Assembly: GCA_019748155.1 (NCBI GenBank)
Contig: JAIEPY010000015.1
Span: forward strand, 1 to 53,163
DNA from: Burkholderiales bacterium
GTDB lineage: Bacteria; Pseudomonadota; Gammaproteobacteria; Burkholderiales; UBA11063
Reading direction: 5' to 3'
Length of the DNA stretch: 53,163 nt
In this document: positions 165 to 17,308 of the stretch, in pieces
Numbering within the stretch: position 1 is the first letter of the stretch
How the letters are laid out: each line of letters opens with the position of its first letter
Notes under the pieces: generated by a model
Seen by the model: only the letters and a program-made list of their open reading frames with translations
Told to the model about the DNA's origin: nothing
The model's database searches: none
Program-made: the position numbers and the translations under genes

Positions 165-585
165 TTCTAGACATCCTTGTTTGTGATGTAAATCGTCATT
201 ACCTTATTGTAACTGACAACACTACATTCTTATTTAAATTTGTCCAGTTTTAGTGGTATGGTGCAAACATTCGTTAAATTCATAATATTTACACCAAGTC
301 ATATACTATTAGTATATATAGTATTTATATTTTTTCTTCTATTCTCCTTGTGCTCATAAAACTCTTCTATAGTTTTTCTATTTAAATTAATGTGTTAATT
401 ATTTTCACCCTGAGTAAACATGTGTGGTAAATTGGTGGGGCGTAAGTTATACAGGGTTCTCAGAATGCTTATTTTTAGGTTACAATTCGTCTTAGCTATA
501 CAAATAAGTATCATTATGTGTTACAAGGAAGTTAATTGATAAAATTTAGTAGTAAACTAAAAAAATTGCTGCCACTTGGGGCGGT
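165..585. other. Intergenic stretch beside IS remnants
   Basis: These AT-rich 421 bases hold no credible gene. The part next to the OrfA start (about 215-270) probably contains the outer end of that insertion sequence, but no terminal repeat could be confirmed because the partner end is outside the window. Nothing else is recognisable here. Confidence 0.4.
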
Positions 586-1017
586 TTGGTACCTCCACCT
601 GAATGGCGATACCGAGGGAGCAGTTCCCTCATCTGCTTATGTAATGCTCATATTATCCGTGAATTAAAGGCGATATTAGAATTTGATAAGCTTGCTCTTG
701 CGGAAGAGTTGCGTCAATACATCAAAAAGATGATAAAAGAGGTAGCTGAAGCCAAAAAACAAGGGATATTGGGGTTAAAATCGAATATAATTAGCGATCC
801 ATTCTTCGGTGGATTTTTTACCACATGAAGAACTGAATCTGGATTTACAGGTATGGAAGACTTTTTTGGAGTTGCCACTGGTTTGACAGGTGTAATGGTG
901 AAAGCCGAGAAAAGCAATGCCACAAGCTAAGAGCTTACAGAAATTGATAACGATACTGAGGCGAATAAGGTGTTTATATTTGGTATAGAAATTCCGCCAG
1001 TTATTGTTATCAAGTAA
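586..1017 (+). pseudogene. Decayed IS66-type transposase fragment
   Basis: Within 586-828 the translation contains CNAHIIRELKAILEFDKLA followed by an alpha-helical stretch ending near EAKKQGILGL. This matches the conserved CNAHxxRELxA block of IS66-family TnpC transposases. The catalytic core before and after it is missing. The same frame continues to 1017 through two stop codons (826 and 928), and that later part has no recognisable similarity. I read it as a relic, not an expressed protein. It borders the biosynthetic cassette that starts at 1096. Confidence 0.6.
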
Positions 1018-1095: not shown

Positions 1096-2310
1096 ATGAA
1101 TATGAAAAATAGCTATAGTAATTTACAAAAAATGGTATCACTTAGTACTGAAGACTGGGATTTGGGAAAGAAATATGGCGTTATTGACATTGTTGCCCAT
1201 GAAGGTATAAATGGTCAATTAGTAGATCAGCATAATCATTCATTTTTCAATATGGTTTCTTGTTCGTATCTTAATTTGGATCGACATCCTACAGTAATCC
1301 AAGGAATTAAAGATGCTGTAGAGAAATTCCCGCAAACCAATATTATTTCTTCACGAGTTAGAATTAGAAGCCAACTTCTTTATGATACTGAAGCTGATTT
1401 AAGTAAATACTTTGATGCTACTGTTATATTGGGGACAAGCTGTTCGGCCGTAACTGAAGGTATATTGCCGCTCTTAGCTTCAGGGGTGCTAACAGAAAAT
1501 ATTAAACCCAAGGTAATTTTTGACCGATTATGTCACTTTTCAATGAATGTAATTAAGCCAATTTGCGCTGATGAAACAGAAGTGGTTACCTGTAAACATA
1601 ATGATATTGAATTTATTGAAAATGAATGTAAGAATAGTTCCTGTGTGGTTTATGTATGCGATGGGGCTTATAGTACTGGTGGATTTGCGCTGGTAAAAGA
1701 ACTAACTGAATTACAGAAAAAATATAATCTTTATGTTTATTATGATGATTCGCACGCGTTATCCGTTTATGGGGATCGAGGATATGGTTATGTAAGAAGT
1801 ATCTATCCTGAAATAAACAAAAAAACAATTATTGTCTATTCATTGGCCAAAGCATTTGGGGCAGGGGCTGGTGGAATAGCTATGCTGAGTAAAGATAATA
1901 ATATGTATGCGATTATTCAACGTTATGCTGGACCATTACTATGGTCGCAGCCTATCTCAACTGCAGTTATCGGTGCTATTCGCGGTTCATTACAAGTTCA
2001 TAAAACTTCTGAGTTTTCTGAAATGCAAGCCAGAATCCAGAATAGCATTATATATTTTGATAATCTGATTAAATCAGATCAAAATGGTAGTGGCGTGCCT
2101 ATCCGATTTATTGTTTTAGGAGAAGCAAATACGGCTCTTGAGGTGGCAAGAGAGGTTTATAAGCAAGGATTTTATGTTTCTCCACTGTTTTTCCCTGTAG
2201 TAGCTAAAGGGCGGGCGGGGCTCAGAATGATGATCAATAACTCTTTACCACAACCGGAGTTTCAACGCTTTTGCAACATTATTAAAGAAGTAACAAATGA
2301 TATTCCCTAA
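1096..2310 (+). CDS. Alpha-oxoamine synthase-like PLP enzyme (BioF/CqsA fold)
   Basis: This 404-residue fold-type I PLP enzyme resembles 8-amino-7-oxononanoate synthase, serine palmitoyltransferase and the autoinducer synthase CqsA. Those enzymes condense an acyl-CoA with an amino acid. Visible motifs are FDRLCHFSM (cofactor-stacking His), YYDDSHALSVYGDRGYGYV (D217 and H220, the DxxH pair that holds the PLP ring) and YSLAKAFGAGAGG with the Schiff-base lysine K252. It is unlikely to be BioF itself, because the neighbours are a CoA lyase, a hydratase and a membrane carrier and no biotin gene is present. The next gene overlaps it by 14 bases. The ATG at 1102 is an alternative start. The substrates are unknown. 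Family assignment is firm; product is not. Confidence 0.85.
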   Translation: MNMKNSYSNLQKMVSLSTEDWDLGKKYGVIDIVAHEGINGQLVDQHNHSFFNMVSCSYLNLDRHPTVIQGIKDAVEKFPQTNIISSRVRIRSQLLYDTEADLSKYFDATVILGTSCSAVTEGILPLLASGVLTENIKPKVIFDRLCHFSMNVIKPICADETEVVTCKHNDIEFIENECKNSSCVVYVCDGAYSTGGFALVKELTELQKKYNLYVYYDDSHALSVYGDRGYGYVRSIYPEINKKTIIVYSLAKAFGAGAGGIAMLSKDNNMYAIIQRYAGPLLWSQPISTAVIGAIRGSLQVHKTSEFSEMQARIQNSIIYFDNLIKSDQNGSGVPIRFIVLGEANTALEVAREVYKQGFYVSPLFFPVVAKGRAGLRMMINNSLPQPEFQRFCNIIKEVTNDIP

Positions 2311-3136
2311 TTCAAGAAGCATTTTAATTACCCCTGCACTTAAAGTAGACCTATATAATAAAGGTGACTCTTGTGAGGCGGATCTTTTTGTGATAGATTT
2401 TGAAGACTCAATCCATTTATCTCAAAAAATTGAAGCTAGACAAGTATTCCTAAAAAATATGCATCTGATCACTAGAACAAAAGGATATAGTTTTAGGATA
2501 AACTCACTGAACTCAGTAGATGGGATACGTGATATATTATTCTTGACCGATAATGTGATTAATGTTCATTATTTAATGGTTTCTAAAGTTACCACTGGTT
2601 TGGAATTATCAATGATAAAAGAGGTATTTATTTCTGCGGGCATGAGAACGCCAAAATTGATTTCTTTGATTGAAAATTCAGGGGCAATTATTAATTTAGA
2701 CTACATTGCGAAAAATAGTGATGCCTTGTTATTTGGTGGAGCAGATTATTCTTTGGATTTTGGGCTAGTGTTAAATGAAAATACCCACCTTCACGCCAGA
2801 CAGATGGTTGCATTGTATGCCAATAAATATAATATTCCAGCAATTGATTCACCAACGTTTGCTGTACATGATTTAGACAAACTACTACTGGATTGCCAGC
2901 AATCTAAAATGTTAGGCTTCTCTGGGAAATTGGCTGTTTCAAAAGCTCAGGTCGCGACTATTAACCAAGCTTATCAGTATACTTCTGATGAAATTACTTG
3001 GGCTAAGAATGTTCTTGAATTAAATCCTAGTGATTCTGCCATTGCGATGGCTGGAGCAAACATGGTTGGCACTCCTTTTATAATTTTAGCACGAATGATT
3101 GTTGAAGCAACAGAAGGTGGTAGTAATGCAAAATAG
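2297..3136 (+). CDS. CitE-like CoA ester lyase / HpcH-HpaI aldolase family
   Basis: This 279-residue TIM-barrel protein belongs to the citrate lyase beta-subunit/malyl-CoA lyase group. Characteristic elements are in order: VIDFEDSI (acidic active-site strand), FRINSL (substrate arginine), SLIENSGAI (metal-binding Glu) and FGGADYSLDFGL (metal-binding Asp). Relatives cleave or form beta-hydroxyacyl-CoA thioesters such as malyl-CoA or methylmalyl-CoA. It overlaps the upstream PLP-enzyme gene by 14 bases and the downstream MaoC gene by 11, so the three are probably translationally coupled. Citrate lyase alpha and gamma subunits are absent, so it acts as a stand-alone lyase or aldolase. The exact substrate is not predictable from the sequence. 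Confidence 0.85.
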   Translation: MIFPNSRSILITPALKVDLYNKGDSCEADLFVIDFEDSIHLSQKIEARQVFLKNMHLITRTKGYSFRINSLNSVDGIRDILFLTDNVINVHYLMVSKVTTGLELSMIKEVFISAGMRTPKLISLIENSGAIINLDYIAKNSDALLFGGADYSLDFGLVLNENTHLHARQMVALYANKYNIPAIDSPTFAVHDLDKLLLDCQQSKMLGFSGKLAVSKAQVATINQAYQYTSDEITWAKNVLELNPSDSAIAMAGANMVGTPFIILARMIVEATEGGSNAK

Positions 3137-3668
3137 ACTGATAGAACTTGGTGAGCAACACTTTCGTGAAAGTAATGGTTTTAATTTTGATGATTTTTCT
3201 ACTGGTGATATTTTTGAGCACCGTCCAGGACGGACAATTACTGCTACTGACAATATTTGGGAAACGTTAATTACAGTAAATCAACATCCAATTCATTTTG
3301 ATGAAGAATATGCTAAAAGAACGCAATTTGGACGTACTTTAGTAAATAGTACACTAACTTTGTCAATTGTTACAGGCTTGACCGTTAATATCCTAAGCGC
3401 CAAAGCAATCGCTAATTTAGGTTGGGATAATGTCAGATTACCTAATCCTTTATTCGTAGGCGATACAATCTATGCAGTTAGTAAAGTGATGTCTAAAAGA
3501 GAGTCAGCCAAACTATCAGATCGTGGCATTATCAAAGTAAGAACTATTGGTTATAATCAAAATAATATTGTAATTATTAGTTTTGACAGAACCATAATGC
3601 TTCCAAAGCAAGGTGGGGAAGTTGATTATTCTCATAATATTGATTTCCAGTGGTTTGATAATGCATAA
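3126..3668 (+). CDS. MaoC-like hot-dog dehydratase/hydratase
   Basis: This protein has about 180 residues and a MaoC fold. The hydratase signature is seen as TVNQHPIHFDEEYAKRTQFG followed by a valine/asparagine-rich helix (TLVNSTLTLSIVTGL). The form resembles mesaconyl-CoA or 2-enoyl-CoA hydratases. I prefer the ATG at 3126, which has GAAGGTGG a few bases upstream; an upstream in-frame start at 3099 has no such site and lies inside the lyase gene. In the ethylmalonyl-CoA pathway a MaoC hydratase partners a CitE-type lyase, and the same pairing here suggests both act on one CoA thioester that feeds the PLP enzyme. That link is inference. Confidence 0.85.
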   Translation: MQNRLIELGEQHFRESNGFNFDDFSTGDIFEHRPGRTITATDNIWETLITVNQHPIHFDEEYAKRTQFGRTLVNSTLTLSIVTGLTVNILSAKAIANLGWDNVRLPNPLFVGDTIYAVSKVMSKRESAKLSDRGIIKVRTIGYNQNNIVIISFDRTIMLPKQGGEVDYSHNIDFQWFDNA

Positions 3669-4539
3669 GTTTATCCAGTATTCCTATATAAATATATTCA
3701 TAGTGCTAACTGCAATTACAATAGTTTTTATTCATAATATAAGCGTTGACATACCTATTGAGTTAATGTTGACACTTACGACTGGATATGCAATTATATT
3801 TTTTCATATTTTACGCTATAAAACATGTGCCCAAAGCTATAAAAAGTTGGCTCTACAAAAAAGTAGCTACATTGGTGTTTTAATTTCATTAGGGTTACTG
3901 TGGATTGGTTCTTTTGTAATTTCTGCTTATTTTTCACCATCAGTATACATTTTGTTTGCTACTGCATGGAGTGGATTTTTAGGCTCTTATTATTTGGGTG
4001 TTTTAGAGCATAAAAGGCTATATGTCTATAAAGCTGTAGCTTTGGCTTTATTAATTGTTTTTTCTTATACTATGTTATTTTTTTACGATTCGTTTAGCTC
4101 AACAAGATTTATTATAATGATAGCCCTTACAACAATAACTGGTATTTCCATGTTTTTGTATTTTAAATTTTCACATTATTTAAATGATCTTGGTCTAGAT
4201 GCTGTAGATATTTTAATGGTTAGATTTTGGGGAATATTTATATTTGCATTAGGATATACTATCTATACAAAAGCATGGAGCACAATTTCATTAAAAATAA
4301 CTCTCTATACGCTATTACTAGCGATTATCTCAATAGTGCCAGTTTATTTTAGCCAAAAATCAGTAGAAGCAATTGGAAGTAATAAGACTAGTATGTTAAT
4401 AACATCTACCCCGTTTATAACATTTGTATTAGAGATGTTATTTACTAATAACCCGGTAACGGTAACAGGGTATTTAAGTATATTGTTTATCATTATATCG
4501 TTAAGTACATATGCTGTTCAACGTAATTATAGTAGCTAA
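3661..4539 (+). CDS. Ten-helix membrane protein, DMT/EamA-type exporter candidate
   Basis: This is a 292-residue, almost wholly hydrophobic protein with about ten predicted membrane segments in two similar halves and a short charged tail, the size and shape of drug/metabolite (EamA) carriers. It starts at ATG 3661, overlapping the end of the MaoC gene by 8 bases. An upstream in-frame start (3613) would lie deep in that gene. As last gene of the operon it most likely exports, or less likely imports, the small molecule handled by the three enzymes. I see no strong family motif, so the transporter class is inferred from topology and context. Confidence 0.6.
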   Translation: MHKFIQYSYINIFIVLTAITIVFIHNISVDIPIELMLTLTTGYAIIFFHILRYKTCAQSYKKLALQKSSYIGVLISLGLLWIGSFVISAYFSPSVYILFATAWSGFLGSYYLGVLEHKRLYVYKAVALALLIVFSYTMLFFYDSFSSTRFIIMIALTTITGISMFLYFKFSHYLNDLGLDAVDILMVRFWGIFIFALGYTIYTKAWSTISLKITLYTLLLAIISIVPVYFSQKSVEAIGSNKTSMLITSTPFITFVLEMLFTNNPVTVTGYLSILFIIISLSTYAVQRNYSS

Positions 4540-4550
4540 AGTTCAGAATT

Positions 4551-4767
4551 TTACACTTTCGGGGGGATGGGCAAAGTGCGACACGCTAAGTCGTTTAATG
4601 ACGTTGACTCACTAATCTGCAAAATCTCCGCTATATCGTAAACATTATGACCTAAATCATAAGCTAAGACAGTGCGAAGGCGAGTTTTTTCATCAATCTT
4701 TTTCGTTATGCGTACCAACTTTTCAAATTCGATATATTTCGTGGGTGTTAGAATTTTATGCATAATC
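4551..4767 (-). pseudogene. IS630-like transposase N-terminal remnant
   Basis: On the minus strand, reading from about 4767, the translation contains RLRTVLAYDLGHNVYDIAE followed by ILQISEST. This is the first helix-turn-helix of IS630/Tc1-type transposases. The frame then degenerates, and the DDE catalytic domain is absent. An open frame extends upstream to 4925, but that part is antisense to the MarR remnant. The fragment sits exactly between the export gene and the broken MarR gene, so it may mark the event that removed the MarR 5' half. Confidence 0.55.
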
Positions 4768-4788
4768 ATGATTATAAATAATTTATAG

Positions 4789-5049
4789 AAATTAGTCCAG
4801 ATTTCAGTTACGAGTAGTATATTAGAAAGTTTGCTAAAAAAAGAGCTGATTACTTGTAGCATTAATCCAGATGATCGACGAAGTGCTCTAATTAGGCTAA
4901 CTGAAGTAGGTATATCCTTATTCAATCAAGTGTTCCCGGCACACATTGAATATTTGGCACCATTGTGCGCACAATTTGATGACCAACAAATGGAGCGCTT
5001 AGCTCAGGAATTAATCCTAATAAAAAACAAATTAGAAAATTTTGGATAA
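4789..5049 (+). pseudogene. MarR-family regulator, 5' truncated
   Basis: The open frame after the stop at 4786-4788 reads LVQISVTSSILESLLKKELI and then INPDDRRSALIRLTEVG. These are the recognition helix and DxRS wing of a MarR winged-helix repressor, followed by the C-terminal dimerisation helix ending at 5049. The N-terminal helices and the start codon are missing, replaced by IS630-like debris. A TTG at 4831 could start translation but would give a protein without a DNA-binding domain. It was probably a regulator of a neighbouring gene and is now inactive. Confidence 0.7.
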
Positions 5050-9915: not shown

Positions 9916-10346
9916 CAGATTTCGGAAAAATAGGTTTGTAAGATTGCACAGGCAGCCAACTGGTCTAATTTACCTTTTTGTGCTTTGCCATAGATTGCCT
10001 GCTCTTCTAACAGCATCGCGGCATCTGTAGAGCTAAAATCTTCCGCTATCAATGTCACGGGTAAATTAAATTTACGCCCCAGCCGTTTGGCAAAATTATT
10101 AATGGTATTAATCAGCTGAATTTTTTGTGGATCATCACTAGCGCTGGGAATCCCGACTACCAGTAACTGCGGCTGCCATTTTGTTATGAGTTCTTCCAGC
10201 TGGTCGATTTTATTCCACATTCCTTCACCAGTAATCGTCACCAAGGGATGAGCAATTTTTAACATGGTATTACCGGTTGCAACTCCGATTCGAGCTTCGC
10301 CATAATCAAAGCCCATTAGCACCAAATTAGCCGCTTTTTCAGGCAT
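9915..10346 (-). CDS. ruvX: RuvX/YqgF RNase H-fold nuclease, 16S rRNA 5' processing
   Basis: About 143 residues. GFDYGEARIGVATG at the start holds the first catalytic Asp; LLVVGIPSAS and LIAEDFSSTDA follow, then a C-terminal DQLAACAILQTYF with the last Asp. YqgF is an essential RNase H-fold nuclease that matures the 16S rRNA 5' end. I prefer the ATG at 10346, which overlaps the yqgE end by 8 bases. An upstream in-frame start at 10379 would add 11 hydrophobic residues read from inside yqgE. The yqgE-yqgF pairing is conserved in proteobacteria. Confidence 0.93.
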   Translation of the reverse strand: MPEKAANLVLMGFDYGEARIGVATGNTMLKIAHPLVTITGEGMWNKIDQLEELITKWQPQLLVVGIPSASDDPQKIQLINTINNFAKRLGRKFNLPVTLIAEDFSSTDAAMLLEEQAIYGKAQKGKLDQLAACAILQTYFSEI

Positions 10347-10896
10347 TACCACCGCCATTAAAATCATAATAGGCCACATTATCGATTCCAGCTAAACTTA
10401 AAGCTAACTGATAACGCTCTTGTGGCGTAACGACCGCTAGAATACGGCTGGCTGGGTTATCAATCACTAACCAATTATTAAAACGTACTTCACGTTCTAA
10501 TTGAAAACTATCCCACATGCAGTAACCAGCAGTGAGCATTACTGGCTTAACCACATCGTCTTGTGCCATTTGTTGGATCTTGTGTCGGCTACCAGTTAAA
10601 ACCCAGCCAAATTCATCTTCATCGCTCTCATGCAGCACAAACCCAGTTTCCAATTCGACTGGTCCGCCAAAATACAAGGGAATTTTACCCCACTGGTTTT
10701 TGTATTGGTTAAAATCTAAATTAGATAATTTACGCTTATCATCAGGTAAATGCTTATTTATAATCACACCAACCGCGCCACTTACCGTGCTATGCTCAGT
10801 AATATAGATTACGCTTTGTCCAAACACATCATCCCTAATTGAGGGGGTGGCAATCAAACATTTGCCTTTTAAGTTATTATTTAATTCAATATTCAT
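10339..10896 (-). CDS. yqgE: YqgE/AlgH family protein
   Basis: A 185-residue YqgE (DUF179) protein, recognised by LKGKCLIATPSIRDDVFGQSVIYI at the start, GGPVELETGFVLH and MLTAGYCMWDSFQLEREV. The biochemical role is unknown; the gene is commonly paired with ruvX, as here with an 8-base overlap. It lies 31 bases downstream of smc, so it is probably co-transcribed. Confidence 0.93.
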   Translation of the reverse strand: MNIELNNNLKGKCLIATPSIRDDVFGQSVIYITEHSTVSGAVGVIINKHLPDDKRKLSNLDFNQYKNQWGKIPLYFGGPVELETGFVLHESDEDEFGWVLTGSRHKIQQMAQDDVVKPVMLTAGYCMWDSFQLEREVRFNNWLVIDNPASRILAVVTPQERYQLALSLAGIDNVAYYDFNGGGNA

Positions 10897-10927
10897 CTTT
10901 ATTTATCTCTCTTTTAATTCTTTTATT

Positions 10928-13900
10928 CTACGCAACGGGAGCAACTTCGGTATCCAGCGCATGTTTAACTGCATCAATCAAACTCACGCTCACCACCGTT
11001 GAAACACCTTTTTCCTGCATGGTAACGCCCACCAACTGATCTGCCATCTCCATCGCCAAACGATTATGCGAAATATAAACAAACTGCGTTTTAGAAGATA
11101 ACTCTTGTACTAAATTACAAAAGCGCTGCGTATTAGCATCGTCCAAAGGTGCATCAACTTCATCTAGAAGACAGAATGGAGCTGGATTTAAACTAAATAA
11201 CGCAAAAATAAAGCTCATTGCAGCTAGGGCTTTTTCTCCACCCGATAGCAGGTGAATTGTGGAGTTTTTCTTCCCCGGTGGCTCAGCAAAAATTTGCACC
11301 CCAGCGATCAAAATGTCCTTATCCGTCAGCGCCAAACGCGCATCGCCACCACCAAATAATGTCCTGAAGTATACCACAATTGCCTGATTTAACTTCTCAA
11401 AAGTGCTTTGGAGTAAGGTTCTGGTTTCACCATCAATATGTTCAATCGCATCTCTCAATGTCGCAGTAGCCGTTTGTAAATCCTCAATCTGACTGAATAA
11501 CTCCTGCTCTTTGGTCGAAGCTTTAGTCAAATCTTCAATCGCCTTCAGATTCACTAGGCCTAGTGCTGCAATCTGTTGCTCCAATTCGCGACAAGCTGAG
11601 CTCAATGCGCTCAGGCTTTGCTGGTTTTGCGTTAGCATCTCTTCCAGCTCAGGAATAGTCAGCTCTAATTTAGCTAAATTTTCCTGATAGGTTGAGAGTA
11701 AAATCTGCTGTTCTTGCTGCTTAAATTTAGTTTGGTTAATTTTTTCCAAATTGCGCTGGTAATTACTATTTAGGGATGACGCCTGATTTTTCAAGCCTAT
11801 GATTTTATTCGATAATTGATCCAACCCCTGCTGGGTTTCTTGCATCTGCGCAGCAATCTCAGCAATCTGTTGTTGCAACTGCATGATTTCTTGTGCCTGA
11901 TCATTGCTATTAAAACTTTGGCGCTCGTGAGTTAATTCGGCTAATTTTTGCGCTGCGGCTGCTAAATAAAGCTTTTTCTCTTCGCTCAAATTTTGCGCAT
12001 TGAGCTTCTGTTGTTGTAACAACTGATTATCAATAATATAACGATTAATTTTATTATCCAAATCCTGCAGTTTATTTTTAGCTAATTGCAAGGCGGTCTC
12101 ATGCTCCAAGCGTTCCATTTCGATATCTTGAGCAGCCAAATCCAACTCTTCATGCGCCAGATGTTTATCCTCAAGCTGTAGCTCCAGCTCCTGAATCTCG
12201 AGATCCAAATGACTGATTTCATGGGTGAGTAACTCTGACTCTTGTGCTACTCGCTCCTGATGGCGTTTGTTTTGCACATAAATTTGTTCCTGCTTGGTAA
12301 ATTCAAGCTGCAAATCATGTTTTTTCACCAATAAACGCTTATGCTTAGCATCCAGACTGATAATATCATTGTGTAGTTGTTGCTGAAACTGTTGCTGGGC
12401 GGTAAGCTTTGCTTGCAATTCGTCGGAAACATCACTCAAGCGCAATTGCTCCGATTCTTCTTGCTGTAACTGCTGCTGGTATTGCAGCAAGCTATGCCCA
12501 TCACTATTGGCATGATAACGAATAAAATCGCGGCTTGCCAAGTGTCCATCTCGAGTAACACCATATTGTCCTGACGCAAGTTTTCTATGTTGCCCAATAT
12601 CATCGAGCAAACAATAGTTATTCAAATATCCAAAAACACCCTGTAAATTCTCATCACGGAGTTTGAGGCATTCACTCAGGCTACCAGCTTGAACCGCAAT
12701 AGCTTGCGAGCTACTTAGCCAAATATTCAAAGCCTGTTTCGGGGTGGTGTTTAATTCCGTCAAATCCGCCAACACTTTGGACTGCAATAAATCCCCCAGC
12801 GCTACTTCAAGGACAGGTTCATAACCTGCTTCAACTTCCAGTGCCTGCCAGAGTTCGCTTACTACTTTAGTAAATAGCGTATCGCTATTATCGGCATCAT
12901 TTTTGCTAGAGAGTAAGTCATTTAAAGTCGCAATTTTGGCATTGCTTCCAGCTAATAATTGCTGTTGTTGATTAAGTTCACGCTGTAGGTTTTCAACTTG
13001 TTGTTTATATTGTTCTGCTTGTTGGTTTTTCTGTTCAAGCGAGCTTTCATTGATCAACAAATCTTCGGCAACCAGCTCAATTTCTTCTTTGATAAAATGA
13101 TAATTTTGATCAAAATCGAGGGTATTCCCCTCTTCCAGCAAGCGCGCCAGACGGGTACTTAGATTAGTTTTTTGCTGTTGTTTATGGCGTAAATTATTTT
13201 GTAATAAATCCAGCTCATGCTTGAGTTTAGCACTGCCGCTTTGCCGATTACTTACTTGCTCGGCAATTTGATTATATTTATCTTGCTGGGTTTCAACAAG
13301 TTGCTGCTGCTCTTCTCGGCACAAGGTTTGTTCACTGATTTCAAATTGATTATCGGCGATTTTCTCGGCAATATTTTCGCTTTGGATGGCTAATTCTTCA
13401 ATCTCGTGCTTAATTTCCTGCTCTTTAGCCGCCAAATCAGTTGATTCATTCTCAAAACGCTTGAGCAAATCACTATAATGTTTATAGCGTTCTTCCACTC
13501 GCGCCAAAGCAGTTCGCAGCTCATTGAACTGTTGCATCAAATCTTGTAAGCGCTGTTCTTGAATAGCTTTTTTATCTTGTTCAACGGTTAGGTTCTGGTT
13601 AACTTCTTCAAGCTGATAACCCAAAACCCGGAGTTCATCTTCGCAATGTTGAATAAATTGGTTAGCTTCCGCCAAAATCTTATTTGCATCATGAACTTTA
13701 ATCGCCATTACCAATGTTTGCTTGGTATTCAGCTCCTGATTAAGCCGCTGATGCAGCTCAGCTACTTGTGCCTGCTCTTTGAGTGTGGATAATTGTTTGA
13801 TGATTTCACTATGAATATCTTCTAGCCGCTGTAAATTTTCGGCGGTATCACTCAGCCGCTGCAGGGTTTCTTTGCGTTTTTCACGATATTTGGAAACTCC

Positions 13901-14404
13901 GGCAGCTTCTTCGATATACAAGCGCATATCTTCTGGCTTGGATTCGATAATCCGACTGATCATGCCCTGCTCAATTACCGCATAGCCTTTGGTACCAACT
14001 CCAGTACCTAAAAATAGCTCGTTGATGTCTTTACGTCGTACTTGTTGATTATTGATATAGTAATTAGATTCGCCCTGCCGTGAAATCAGGCGTTTGATGG
14101 AGATTTCATCATAAGTATTCCATAAACCGTACAATGATTTGGCGCTATTGTCAAAAATAAGCTCAACCGTTGCCCGTGATACCGCTTTTCGCTTCAGAGA
14201 ACCATTAAAAATCACATCCAGCATTGAATCTCCGCGTAGCTGTTTCGCAGATGACTCACCCAATACCCAGCGCACCGCATCAATCACATTCGATTTACCG
14301 CAACCATTTGGCCCGACAATCCCAACTAATTGACCATGAACTTCGATAGCGGTACTATCAACAAAGGACTTAAACCCGGATAATTTAATTTGCTGTAACT
14401 TCAT
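10928..14404 (-). CDS. smc: Chromosome segregation ATPase SMC
   Basis: A full-length 1158-residue SMC. The N-terminal Walker A is GPNGCGKSNVIDAVRWVLGE near residue 30. Long Gln/Glu-rich coiled coils flank a hinge around residues 500-660. Near the C-terminus are the ABC signature LLSGGEKALAAMSFIFALF and Walker B FCLLDEVDAPLDDAN. It compacts and aligns the chromosome, normally with ScpA and ScpB, which are not in this window. Having SMC rather than MukBEF argues against an enterobacterial host. It leads the smc-yqgE-ruvX-MBL operon. Confidence 0.97.
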   Translation of the reverse strand: MKLQQIKLSGFKSFVDSTAIEVHGQLVGIVGPNGCGKSNVIDAVRWVLGESSAKQLRGDSMLDVIFNGSLKRKAVSRATVELIFDNSAKSLYGLWNTYDEISIKRLISRQGESNYYINNQQVRRKDINELFLGTGVGTKGYAVIEQGMISRIIESKPEDMRLYIEEAAGVSKYREKRKETLQRLSDTAENLQRLEDIHSEIIKQLSTLKEQAQVAELHQRLNQELNTKQTLVMAIKVHDANKILAEANQFIQHCEDELRVLGYQLEEVNQNLTVEQDKKAIQEQRLQDLMQQFNELRTALARVEERYKHYSDLLKRFENESTDLAAKEQEIKHEIEELAIQSENIAEKIADNQFEISEQTLCREEQQQLVETQQDKYNQIAEQVSNRQSGSAKLKHELDLLQNNLRHKQQQKTNLSTRLARLLEEGNTLDFDQNYHFIKEEIELVAEDLLINESSLEQKNQQAEQYKQQVENLQRELNQQQQLLAGSNAKIATLNDLLSSKNDADNSDTLFTKVVSELWQALEVEAGYEPVLEVALGDLLQSKVLADLTELNTTPKQALNIWLSSSQAIAVQAGSLSECLKLRDENLQGVFGYLNNYCLLDDIGQHRKLASGQYGVTRDGHLASRDFIRYHANSDGHSLLQYQQQLQQEESEQLRLSDVSDELQAKLTAQQQFQQQLHNDIISLDAKHKRLLVKKHDLQLEFTKQEQIYVQNKRHQERVAQESELLTHEISHLDLEIQELELQLEDKHLAHEELDLAAQDIEMERLEHETALQLAKNKLQDLDNKINRYIIDNQLLQQQKLNAQNLSEEKKLYLAAAAQKLAELTHERQSFNSNDQAQEIMQLQQQIAEIAAQMQETQQGLDQLSNKIIGLKNQASSLNSNYQRNLEKINQTKFKQQEQQILLSTYQENLAKLELTIPELEEMLTQNQQSLSALSSACRELEQQIAALGLVNLKAIEDLTKASTKEQELFSQIEDLQTATATLRDAIEHIDGETRTLLQSTFEKLNQAIVVYFRTLFGGGDARLALTDKDILIAGVQIFAEPPGKKNSTIHLLSGGEKALAAMSFIFALFSLNPAPFCLLDEVDAPLDDANTQRFCNLVQELSSKTQFVYISHNRLAMEMADQLVGVTMQEKGVSTVVSVSLIDAVKHALDTEVAPVA

Positions 14405-14435
14405 TCAACCATAACTTTTATTAAAACAGTCCGTT

Positions 14436-14444
14436 ATTATAGCA
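14436..14444 (-). promoter_or_regulatory. Extended -10 promoter of smc operon
   Basis: The minus strand reads TGCTATAAT 32 bases before the smc ATG, a perfect extended -10. The -35 region is poor. The same nonamer precedes trxA, msrA and the lacI-type gene. Confidence 0.55.
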
Positions 14445-14490
14445 AATTGATGAGCTAACTATGGCTATCTTAATTACAATGCCAATGAAA

Positions 14491-15408
14491 TTAGTGCATT
14501 ACTAAATTTTCATCTAAATTTAACCGCAACATGCATTTATTAATGAAATCAATGAATATTTCCGTACGGGCATTTTTACCTTCCGGGTTTATCAATAAAT
14601 AGTAGTCAAATCCAGGGATGTAACTATCTGGCAGTACTTGGACGACGAGACCAGCTTCAATATCATTTTTCATCATAATATCCATACCGGCACCTATCAT
14701 TACCCCAGTTTGTGTAAGTTCTTGATCATGTATACTGCTATTCTGTATGATTCTATATTTAGAATTAAAGATTTCCCGATGTCCAGTTTTTTTATTAATT
14801 AAATAAATCTTTTTATCCACAACCTCATTGTCCAATGGTATCCCTATGATTGGGTGATCTTTAATTTGCTCTTGCTTAACTGGTAAGCCAAATTTCTTTA
14901 TGTATTCTGGATAACAATAAAATATAATTTTTGTACGACATAATAGCCGCATTTTCTGAGAGCTTTTTAATGGTCGGTGATTTATGATTGCCAAATCGAA
15001 ATTATCTTTGATTAAATTTATTTCCCGGTTTTCATAAGTCAAGTTTAATGAGATTTTAGGATGTTGAGTCAGAAAACCTGCCAAATGAGGGGTAATAATT
15101 TTCAAGGCGAAACATGGTGGCAATAATACATTGATGCGTCCACTGATTTCATTACGACTACTTTCCATGTTAATAATTGTTTGATTAAACTCGGTTTCAA
15201 GATTATAAAATTTATCATAAAGCTGTTTACCCAAACTTGATAATTGCAGATGACGAGTATCACGCTTAAGAAGCACTAAGTTTAATTCTTTTTCTAGCTT
15301 TTGAATTTTTCTAGTTAAATTAGAAGAGCTTATACCAGTATATCTTGATGCATCTGCGAAGCTGCCTAACTTGACGATTTTTATGAAATAGATCAATTCA
15401 TCATACAT
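14491..15408 (-). CDS. LysR-family transcriptional regulator
   Basis: A 305-residue LysR-type regulator. The winged helix is at residues 1-60 (DELIYFIKIVKLGSFADASR, then ISSSNLTRKIQKLEKELN), followed by a periplasmic-binding-protein-like effector domain from about residue 90 (GRINVLLPPCFALKIITPHL). It has the CrgA/DsdC-like LTTR size. It is divergent from the lipoprotein gene at 15707 across 298 bases that include a MITE-like element. It might control that gene, but no LysR box was identified. The effector is unknown. Confidence 0.9.
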   Translation of the reverse strand: MYDELIYFIKIVKLGSFADASRYTGISSSNLTRKIQKLEKELNLVLLKRDTRHLQLSSLGKQLYDKFYNLETEFNQTIINMESSRNEISGRINVLLPPCFALKIITPHLAGFLTQHPKISLNLTYENREINLIKDNFDLAIINHRPLKSSQKMRLLCRTKIIFYCYPEYIKKFGLPVKQEQIKDHPIIGIPLDNEVVDKKIYLINKKTGHREIFNSKYRIIQNSSIHDQELTQTGVMIGAGMDIMMKNDIEAGLVVQVLPDSYIPGFDYYLLINPEGKNARTEIFIDFINKCMLRLNLDENLVMH

Positions 15409-15468
15409 TCCTATGGAGTCCTAAAAAGTTAGATAAATACCGTATGACTTATCATGGCGCCTATCCTA

Positions 15469-15560
15469 GTGTAACAGTTATAAAACATTATTGCACACAA
15501 TAATCAAGCACTAATCAATTGCATGATTATTCAATATTTTTACTTTTATAGCTGTTACAC
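15469..15560. repeat. 92-bp MITE-like element with TA flanks
   Basis: The left end GTGTAACAGTTATAAAA (15469-15485) and the reverse complement of 15544-15560 match at 16 of 17 bases. Both ends are bordered by TA (15467-15468 and 15561-15562), as expected for a target duplication made by an IS630/Tc1-type transposase. The inside holds no gene, only short hairpins such as ATTATTG-CACA-CAATAAT (15487-15504). It is a non-autonomous element candidate inserted upstream of the first lipoprotein gene. Confidence 0.6.
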
Positions 15561-15706
15561 TAAGTGGAAGGTCAACAATTGCGACAGGAAGCATTTCACC
15601 GATTGACATAAATAAATTAAGGCGGGATATTTTGTTATTTAATGAAGCTCGATAGCCACAGCGCAGCGGGGTATCTTCATTTGAATTATTAGAGGGGTAC
15701 TTAATC

Positions 15707-17308
15707 ATGATTATTTCAAATTCAAACACGTCATTTTATGAGTTTTTCATACAAATACTAAGTAAATTTGTACGTGATACAAAAATATTGCCACTAGCAA
15801 TCTTATCTATATTTTTAATCGCTATCACTGCTTGTGGTAGTGGAAGTAGCAGTTACAATAACCCTACTACCAATACAAATGACGTCTCTTTACAATCAAT
15901 TACACTCACACCAGTTATTTCACCAAATACAACTGCATATCAATCCGCTAGCGTTAGTCCTATAAGTGTGCCGTTAGGGATAACTCAATTATTTGTTGCA
16001 ACTGGCTTTTATTCTGATGGTAGCAAGAGAGACATTACTTCTTCTGTAACCTGGACGTCATCCCAAACCTCGTTTGCTACAATAAATAACTCCCCGGGAT
16101 TAAATGGAGTGCTAACCCCAGTTGCACCAGGCATTACAATAGTCTCGGCAACGATTGATACCTTTTCAGAGAGTATCAGCGTAACAATAACTAATGCATT
16201 TTTAAAATCAATAAATGTGACTCCAGCTCGCGCTAGCACACAGTTAGGGATAAATAAACAATTTACCGCAATTGGTACATATTCTGATGAAACTACACGA
16301 GACATTACTAACGCAGCAACATGGTCATCATCTTTTCCTTCAGTTTCTACGGTAAGTAATACACCAGGTAGTAAGGGACTAGTAACCCCAGTCGGATTTG
16401 GCTATGACTTTATTGATGCGACTTTATATGGCATAACAAATTCTGGTGAGCTATTAGTAACTAATACAGCCTTCGAATCAACTGTTTGGGCATATGTCGC
16501 GAATCAATCTGCGGGTAATGCAGTGTCATACTGCAGCATAAATATTGCTGGTTCTTTATCTGAATGTATGAGCACGGGTAGTGGCTTTGCGAATCCAAAT
16601 GGAATCGCAATTAACAATGGTTATGCCTATATTAACAATATATCCAATAATTCAGTATCACTTTGTTCTGTAGATCCTGTTCTAGGTTCTTTAAGTGGAT
16701 GTATTACCACCGCCAGCGGAACTCCTTTTGCTGCTCCAAGTCAGTTAGTGATTAATAATGGATTTGCCTTTATTGATAATATTGGTAATAACACCGTAGT
16801 TGTTTGTAGCGTAAATCCTAGTAGTGGTGCGCTATTTGCATGTAACGATAGCGGTGTTGGCAGCATCTTTAATGGACCAAGTGGATTGGCAATTAAGAAT
16901 GGATTTGCATATATTGCAAATCAAAATAGTTCCATAGTGACACAATGTGCCGTAAACCCTGCAACAGGAGCATTTTCAGGGTGCGTTAACAGTAGCGCGA
17001 CCGGTTTGTCTGGTGCATTTGGGTTTGCAATAGAGAATGGCTTTGCCTACATTGCTAATCAATTTAGTAATACGGTGTCAGTTTGTAAGGTAAATCCTGT
17101 AACTGGTGCTTTATCCGGATGTGGTTACACGGGCATAGGATTTGGTAGTCCGAAAGGCATTGCCATCAGAAATGGATTTGCTTATATTACTAATCAAAGT
17201 AGTGGCGATGTAATAAGCTGTGCGGCAAATTCAAGCACAGGACTTTTAACCAGTTGTAATGTTACTGGTAATGGTTTTAATAATCCAGTAGGAATTGCAA
17301 CCAACTGA
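15707..17308 (+). CDS. Lipoprotein with two Ig-like (Big_2) domains and a six-bladed propeller (copy 1)
   Basis: A 533-residue surface or periplasmic protein. A long basic n-region leads to a lipobox ending ITAC (Cys43). Two bacterial Ig-like domains follow (about residues 63-160 and 165-255), each with a YSDGS/YSDET segment and a TW core. Six repeats of about 45 residues come next (about 258-533), each with GFAYIANQ-like strands and a C-x10/11-C pair, as in CSVNPSSGALFAC. The repeats look like beta-propeller blades of the YncE/YVTN type. GAGGGG upstream serves as ribosome-binding site. The C-terminal third is nearly identical to the next gene. Function unknown; adhesion or surface binding is a guess. 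Confidence 0.75.
   Translation: MIISNSNTSFYEFFIQILSKFVRDTKILPLAILSIFLIAITACGSGSSSYNNPTTNTNDVSLQSITLTPVISPNTTAYQSASVSPISVPLGITQLFVATGFYSDGSKRDITSSVTWTSSQTSFATINNSPGLNGVLTPVAPGITIVSATIDTFSESISVTITNAFLKSINVTPARASTQLGINKQFTAIGTYSDETTRDITNAATWSSSFPSVSTVSNTPGSKGLVTPVGFGYDFIDATLYGITNSGELLVTNTAFESTVWAYVANQSAGNAVSYCSINIAGSLSECMSTGSGFANPNGIAINNGYAYINNISNNSVSLCSVDPVLGSLSGCITTASGTPFAAPSQLVINNGFAFIDNIGNNTVVVCSVNPSSGALFACNDSGVGSIFNGPSGLAIKNGFAYIANQNSSIVTQCAVNPATGAFSGCVNSSATGLSGAFGFAIENGFAYIANQFSNTVSVCKVNPVTGALSGCGYTGIGFGSPKGIAIRNGFAYITNQSSGDVISCAANSSTGLLTSCNVTGNGFNNPVGIATN

Follow-up and report, generated by a model that had tools for sequence, protein, structure and literature searches.

Ketomethylene pseudopeptides mimic a peptide bond that proteases cannot cut. 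According to a 2017 study of ketomemicin, the pathway reportedly opens with an aldol step that joins an acyl-CoA to a 2-oxo acid; dehydration, then reduction, then decarboxylative condensation with an amino acid follow, and the product is a ketomethylene pseudo-dipeptide. The six genes ktmA–F encode an aldolase, a PLP C-acyltransferase, a dehydratase, an ATP-grasp ligase, an amidinotransferase and a dehydrogenase (PMC11943689). The natural ketomethylene pseudopeptides named are the ketomemicins and arphamenines only, ktm clusters have been mapped within Actinomycetota, and Salinispora carries partial ktm clusters for which no product is reported (PMC11943689). Arphamenine, from Chromobacterium violaceum, a Gram-negative of the wider group, is a ketomethylene pseudo-dipeptide (PMC11943689) and represents the product type expected from the locus described below; a literature search did not find its gene cluster. 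Two further systems share parts of this machinery. DynZ of dynaplanin synthesis is a KtmB-homologous C-acyltransferase in a small cluster, as in our locus, but has a GNAT partner, is not described with an aldolase/dehydratase pair and makes a different linkage (PMC9239090). RipB and RipC of itaconate degradation are likewise a MaoC and CitE-like pair, but our proteins fall under the cut-offs of both families, our MaoC protein lies outside RipB, a CoA-transferase is absent and a PLP enzyme is added.

We analyzed a window of 53,163 nucleotides from a Burkholderiales bacterium (draft genome 2.67 Mb), whose first base is the first base of its contig. Four ORFs at 1096–4539 on the + strand overlap successively by 14, 11 and 8 bases (Table 1), as the first-pass annotation had noted, and its view that they are co-expressed as one cassette appears correct. 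The MaoC and EamA ORFs start with ATG at 3126 and 3661, with an in-frame TTG at 3099 and a GTG at 3613, respectively. Families were assigned with Pfam and NCBIfam profile searches, and sequence comparison links the PLP enzyme, aldolase and MaoC protein each to solved structures. Among named relatives, a Neisseriaceae MAG is nearest to the cassette. A promoter and terminator scan gave sites no more frequent than in shuffled sequence and is thus uninformative. The annotation had left the cassette unassigned, citing no characterized pathway, but its three enzymes correspond to those of ketomemicin ktmA/B/C; the more general proposal of small-molecule synthesis with probable export holds, the export being presumed. 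We read the locus, with a probability of about 0.7, as a ketomemicin-type carbonylmethylene cassette for the synthesis and export of a ketomethylene-type pseudo-dipeptide. The core trio is already known; what would be new is a minimal version with an exporter in the reductase slot.

Table 1. Features of the cassette and its flanks, in window coordinates
Feature	Position	Strand	Basis
Possible IS66 transposase remnant, upstream, weak	556..828	+	DDE_Tnp_IS66 E 0.03, under cut-off
KtmB-type PLP-dependent alpha-oxoamine synthase / amino acid C-acyltransferase, 404 aa	1096..2310	+	NF005697, tree, catalytic residues
KtmA-like CitE/HpcH-family aldolase, 279 aa	2297..3136	+	PF03328 64.9 bits; active residues
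KtmC-like MaoC-fold dehydratase, 180 aa	3126..3668	+	PF01575 66.6 bits; MaoC tree
EamA-family transporter, 292 aa	3661..4539	+	PF00892 above cut-off
Homeodomain-like HTH ORF, possibly transposase remnant, weak	4551..4925	-	HTH_23 E 3.8e-5, 23.8 bits (cut-off 24.6)
MarR-family regulator gene, truncated to 3' part; intact in sister genome G022	4801..5049	+	

The PLP enzyme belongs to the Aminotran_1_2/PRK07505 family and scores 489.8 bits with NF005697 (cut-off 342), compared with 514 bits for the KtmB of Streptomyces sp. I05A-00742 (locus L044) in the same subfamily model. Alignment with relatives shows that His147, Asp217, His220, Lys252 and Arg377 are retained, whereas Asn381 replaces a near-invariant Arg. 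In our PLP tree the enzyme falls inside a group with 100% SH-aLRT support, comprising 61 rows and including eight KtmB proteins, that leaves out the BioF and Kbl of E. coli as well as five ALAS proteins and five members of the CqsA family. The KtmB proteins form a separate branch of this group. The window enzyme pairs with that of sister genome G012, its only close relative (69% identical), and this pair sits in a weakly supported branch (82) of trio loci with an ornithine-cyclodeaminase (OCD)-type gene and trio-less loci. Both this tree and the MaoC tree below were built by a quick method, with SH-aLRT as the sole support measure, and some of their reference rows have long branches. Identity as BioF, Kbl or ALAS is ruled out by scores far under cut-offs (125, 118 and 85 bits) and by their separation in the tree; CqsA/LqsA is ruled out by a score of 78.9 bits against a cut-off of 428 and a distinct clade. 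The first-pass annotation was right about the intact catalytic Lys, Asp and His, the condensation of an acyl-CoA with an amino acid and the position outside BioF and Kbl, but CqsA, the family member it cited, is not near the enzyme in the tree.

The neighboring aldolase, of the HpcH/HpaI family, retains DxED, Arg67, Glu126 and Asp150 in the alignment with relatives. By family and alignment it is of KtmA type, with matching active residues at an identity of only 30%; its positions 215–216 are SK where relatives have HP. The RipC model gives it 151.7 bits, under the cut-off of 375, and RipC identity is ruled out by score and context only. The dehydratase has Asn52 and His57, as do all relatives, and lies in a MaoC tree group with 95% SH-aLRT support composed solely of cassette MaoC proteins and KtmC. 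Its RipB score is 196.7 bits (cut-off 340), and a protein scoring over that cut-off falls outside the group, so that RipB identity is ruled out by tree and scores together. Both the SK and the Asn381 changes are shared with G012. Because they lie at near-invariant sites, they suggest substrates that are probably unlike those of KtmA and KtmB.

How closely does the locus resemble a ktm cluster? One reference in our comparison is L044, where the order is aldolase, PLP enzyme, dehydratase, PGM1-type ATP-grasp ligase, an unmatched gene and an MDR dehydrogenase, in agreement with ktmA–F in gene types and order. The fifth gene has no Pfam or NCBIfam match, and its role as amidinotransferase is assigned from position only. 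In the genome paper for this strain, antiSMASH is reported to have identified a ketomemicin-analogue cluster (PMC7317104), possibly the same locus. As in the ktm clusters of Micromonospora, Streptomyces mobaraensis and Salinispora, the window has the aldolase, PLP C-acyltransferase and dehydratase side by side, and in trees its PLP enzyme falls with KtmB and its dehydratase with KtmC. Identity to the ktm genes is about 41–48% apart from the aldolase. Unlike those clusters, the window has the order B-A-C, an added EamA exporter, changed residues at conserved sites and a host that is not an actinomycete. None of its four genes encodes a KtmF dehydrogenase, and neither the four genes nor their immediate flanks encode a KtmD ligase or KtmE amidinotransferase. 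A possible link to furanomycin was dropped, since the furanomycin paper names no matching genes.

The trio itself is widespread. A GTDB genome scan with the PLP enzyme gave 80 loci. The comparison covered 86 loci, plasmid hits and genus relatives among them, and all six ktm-type genes are present at eight. In 54 of the 86, the PLP gene has both a CitE-like and a MaoC-like gene no more than 8 kb away; these loci come from Pseudomonadota, Myxococcota, Actinomycetota and others (genera include Pseudomonas, Xenorhabdus, Burkholderia, Massilia, Myxococcus and Corallococcus, among others). Within the host's own order, PRK07505 genes occur in 6 of 399 sampled genomes. The first-pass annotation looked to constant linkage with all three neighbors of the PLP enzyme for support; two of them (aldolase and MaoC) are conserved and the exporter is not. 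The three core genes evolve under constraint, with dN/dS of about 0.09, 0.19 and 0.09 against G012 at near-saturated dS. Adjacency in many distant genomes and this constraint together indicate that the gene grouping is not a matter of chance.

A stand-alone reductase is nearly always found near the trio. If only trio loci are considered that extend 5 kb or more from the PLP gene in both directions, and reductases are counted up to 8 kb away, 22 have an MDR (KtmF-type) gene, 17 an OCD/mu-crystallin-type gene, 3 neither and none both. Most of these genes are close to the trio and on the same strand; a few matches farther off or on the opposite strand could be coincidental, and the reading frames there are in some cases doubtful. 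The mutual exclusion has a Fisher value of 4e-9, which overstates the evidence because the loci are related to each other. The simplest reading of the apparent pattern is that two unrelated reductase families serve the same step. The window cassette has neither type, and the gene overlapping the end of its MaoC gene encodes the EamA exporter.

Several observations favor the carbonylmethylene reading of the cassette: (i) the recurrence of the trio, with the window PLP enzyme and MaoC protein grouping with KtmB and KtmC; (ii) the correspondence of L044 to ktmA–F, in a strain reported to carry a ketomemicin-analogue cluster (PMC7317104) and (iii) intact catalytic residues and low dN/dS. Against it stand the missing linked reductase, ligase and amidinotransferase, the altered near-invariant sites and the modest identity to the ktm genes. 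By gene content, the window enzymes cover every step from aldol addition to condensation except reduction. From sequence we infer the reaction direction, the substrates, the fate of the double bond and export, as follows. The KtmA-like aldolase would add acetyl-CoA or malonyl-CoA to a 2-oxo acid R-CH2-CO-COOH, giving a 2-substituted malyl-CoA, from which the KtmC-like dehydratase would remove water to form a substituted fumaryl-CoA. Reduction to the succinyl-CoA is probably carried out by the adjacent reductase in relatives; with no linked reductase here, this step would be skipped or performed by an unlinked enzyme. The KtmB-like enzyme would then catalyze decarboxylative condensation with an amino acid to H2N-CHR'-CO-CH2-CH(COOH)-CH2R, or to the CH=C form if unreduced. 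This product would be a dipeptide mimic in which carbon replaces the amide nitrogen, and the EamA protein would export it.

The assignment of gene 4 comes from a PF00892 match that covers just the second half of the protein (29.7 bits; cut-off 28.2). A crude hydropathy scan shows many hydrophobic segments, and the ten helices predicted for the protein are compatible with an EamA carrier. Its relatives are weak and from the same genus (best 36% identity). The gene has no counterpart in other cassettes and so lies outside the conserved set, but it occupies the slot often held by a reductase in relatives. The comparison with the G012 cassette (L021/L026) is the most direct. The two share gene order and the SK and Asn381 residues, and the G012 proteins are the closest to those of the window (69, 52 and 72% identical), but in G012 an OCD gene stands where the window has the exporter, the cassette runs on into SDR, condensation-like and amino acid ligase genes, and no EamA gene was found beside it.

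The best-surviving alternative keeps the same core pathway and is a real possibility, somewhat short of even odds: an unlinked reductase would perform the reduction and the product would be an ordinary, saturated ketomethylene pseudo-dipeptide. A linked reductase is present in nearly all related loci, and since genomes commonly encode MDR and SDR reductases, an unlinked one could serve. However, a search of the window genome, run without a positive control, did not find a KtmF match, no copy of a cassette-type reductase was found there, and its sole OCD protein is one shared across the genus and encoded beside an arginase.

A second alternative, which we consider unlikely, is that the PLP enzyme uses the fumaryl-type CoA directly, yielding an alpha,beta-unsaturated gamma-keto acid (a beta-acylacrylate). 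The window would then hold a self-contained, reductase-free ketomethylene branch making and exporting an electrophilic dipeptide mimic, conceivably a covalent inhibitor of thiol enzymes; such an unreduced product, if made, may be chemically reactive. The replacement of the G012 reductase by the exporter and the altered conserved residues in both aldolase and PLP enzyme are in keeping with this idea, but G012 has the same altered residues and yet carries an OCD gene. A literature search found no report of an unsaturated beta-acylacrylate product from this enzyme family.

Genomic context bears on where the cassette came from and what state it is in. In G022 the order is MarR, flavodoxin-fold reductase, YceI (84% identical to the window's), a GtrA-like gene and MnmG; a PRK07505 gene was looked for in the G022 genome and not found. 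Of MarR the window retains just the 3' part. Close to the cassette there are also weak remnants that resemble transposases. With MarR intact in G022, horizontal acquisition is likely, a conclusion that draws on one sister genome. The same remnants and truncated MarR gene could mark a decaying piece of a larger cluster, one that no longer has its reductase and ligase or yields any product, a state for which the productless partial clusters of Salinispora offer a precedent (PMC11943689). We regard decay as improbable, however, given four intact overlapping frames, low dN/dS and intact core catalytic residues. A catabolic set whose enzymes act as lyases, as RipB/RipC do when itaconate is degraded, is very unlikely: RipB and RipC are the top-scoring curated models for genes 3 and 2, but both scores are far under cut-offs, the MaoC tree joins the window to KtmC, no CoA-transferase is present among the four genes, and a degradative pathway would have little use for a PLP condensing enzyme or an exporter. 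Least probable of all is a CqsA/LqsA-kind synthase of an alpha-aminoketone autoinducer, since the shared PLP superfamily and a weak CqsA score are outweighed by the PRK07505 score, the distance in the tree, the linked aldolase and dehydratase and the absence of a sensor or regulator from the cassette; the signal function once suggested for the product is without support.

Returning to the carbonylmethylene reading, the window holds one of the smallest versions of the trio family. Of greater interest are two by-products of the analysis, namely that the trio extends beyond Actinomycetota and that one reductase type apparently substitutes for another. A widely distributed trio that seems able to work with either reductase type, along with tailoring genes that vary between loci, points to a wider family of protease-inhibitor-like compounds, most of it unassigned, and the trio loci suggest a route by which to seek an arphamenine-type cluster.

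Other gene sets were seen around the trio. One conserved set adds a 2OG-Fe(II) oxygenase, an unassigned protein of ~300 aa in which an HxD motif is conserved (A2), an alpha/beta hydrolase and usually an OCD gene, at L046/L022, L051, L084, L087 and L098 (partially at L079, L101 and L095) in Pseudomonadota, Actinomycetota and Myxococcota; we know of no product for the combination of trio, oxygenase and A2. Another has a carbamoyltransferase gene ahead of PLP enzyme, aldolase, MaoC and OCD genes, followed by an SDR and often a protein of ~450 aa of no known family (L067; L072, Pseudomonas protegens; L042, Trinickia fusca; L018, a Rhizobium lusitanum plasmid). At L021 of G012, positions ~10000–16000 hold, by eye, look-alikes of a single-strand binding protein, conjugation peptidase, lytic transglycosylase and VirB-type secretion genes, and the G012 cassette may sit on a conjugative element. 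The genus relatives G015 and G016 (L013, L014; wider L024, L025) encode a highly divergent PRK07505 protein that branches as sister to the entire KtmB group, with no aldolase or MaoC match found in 16 kb around each. The solved structures closest to the window PLP enzyme, PDB 8xha, 8xhd, 8xhk and 8i7u (295–298 bits), are mostly labelled 8-amino-7-oxononanoate synthase, a label that may be wrong; E. coli BioF scores just 67 bits. Finally, at L048:4277-6391, in a Myxococcales MAG, aldolase and PLP enzyme share one open frame, possibly a natural fusion.
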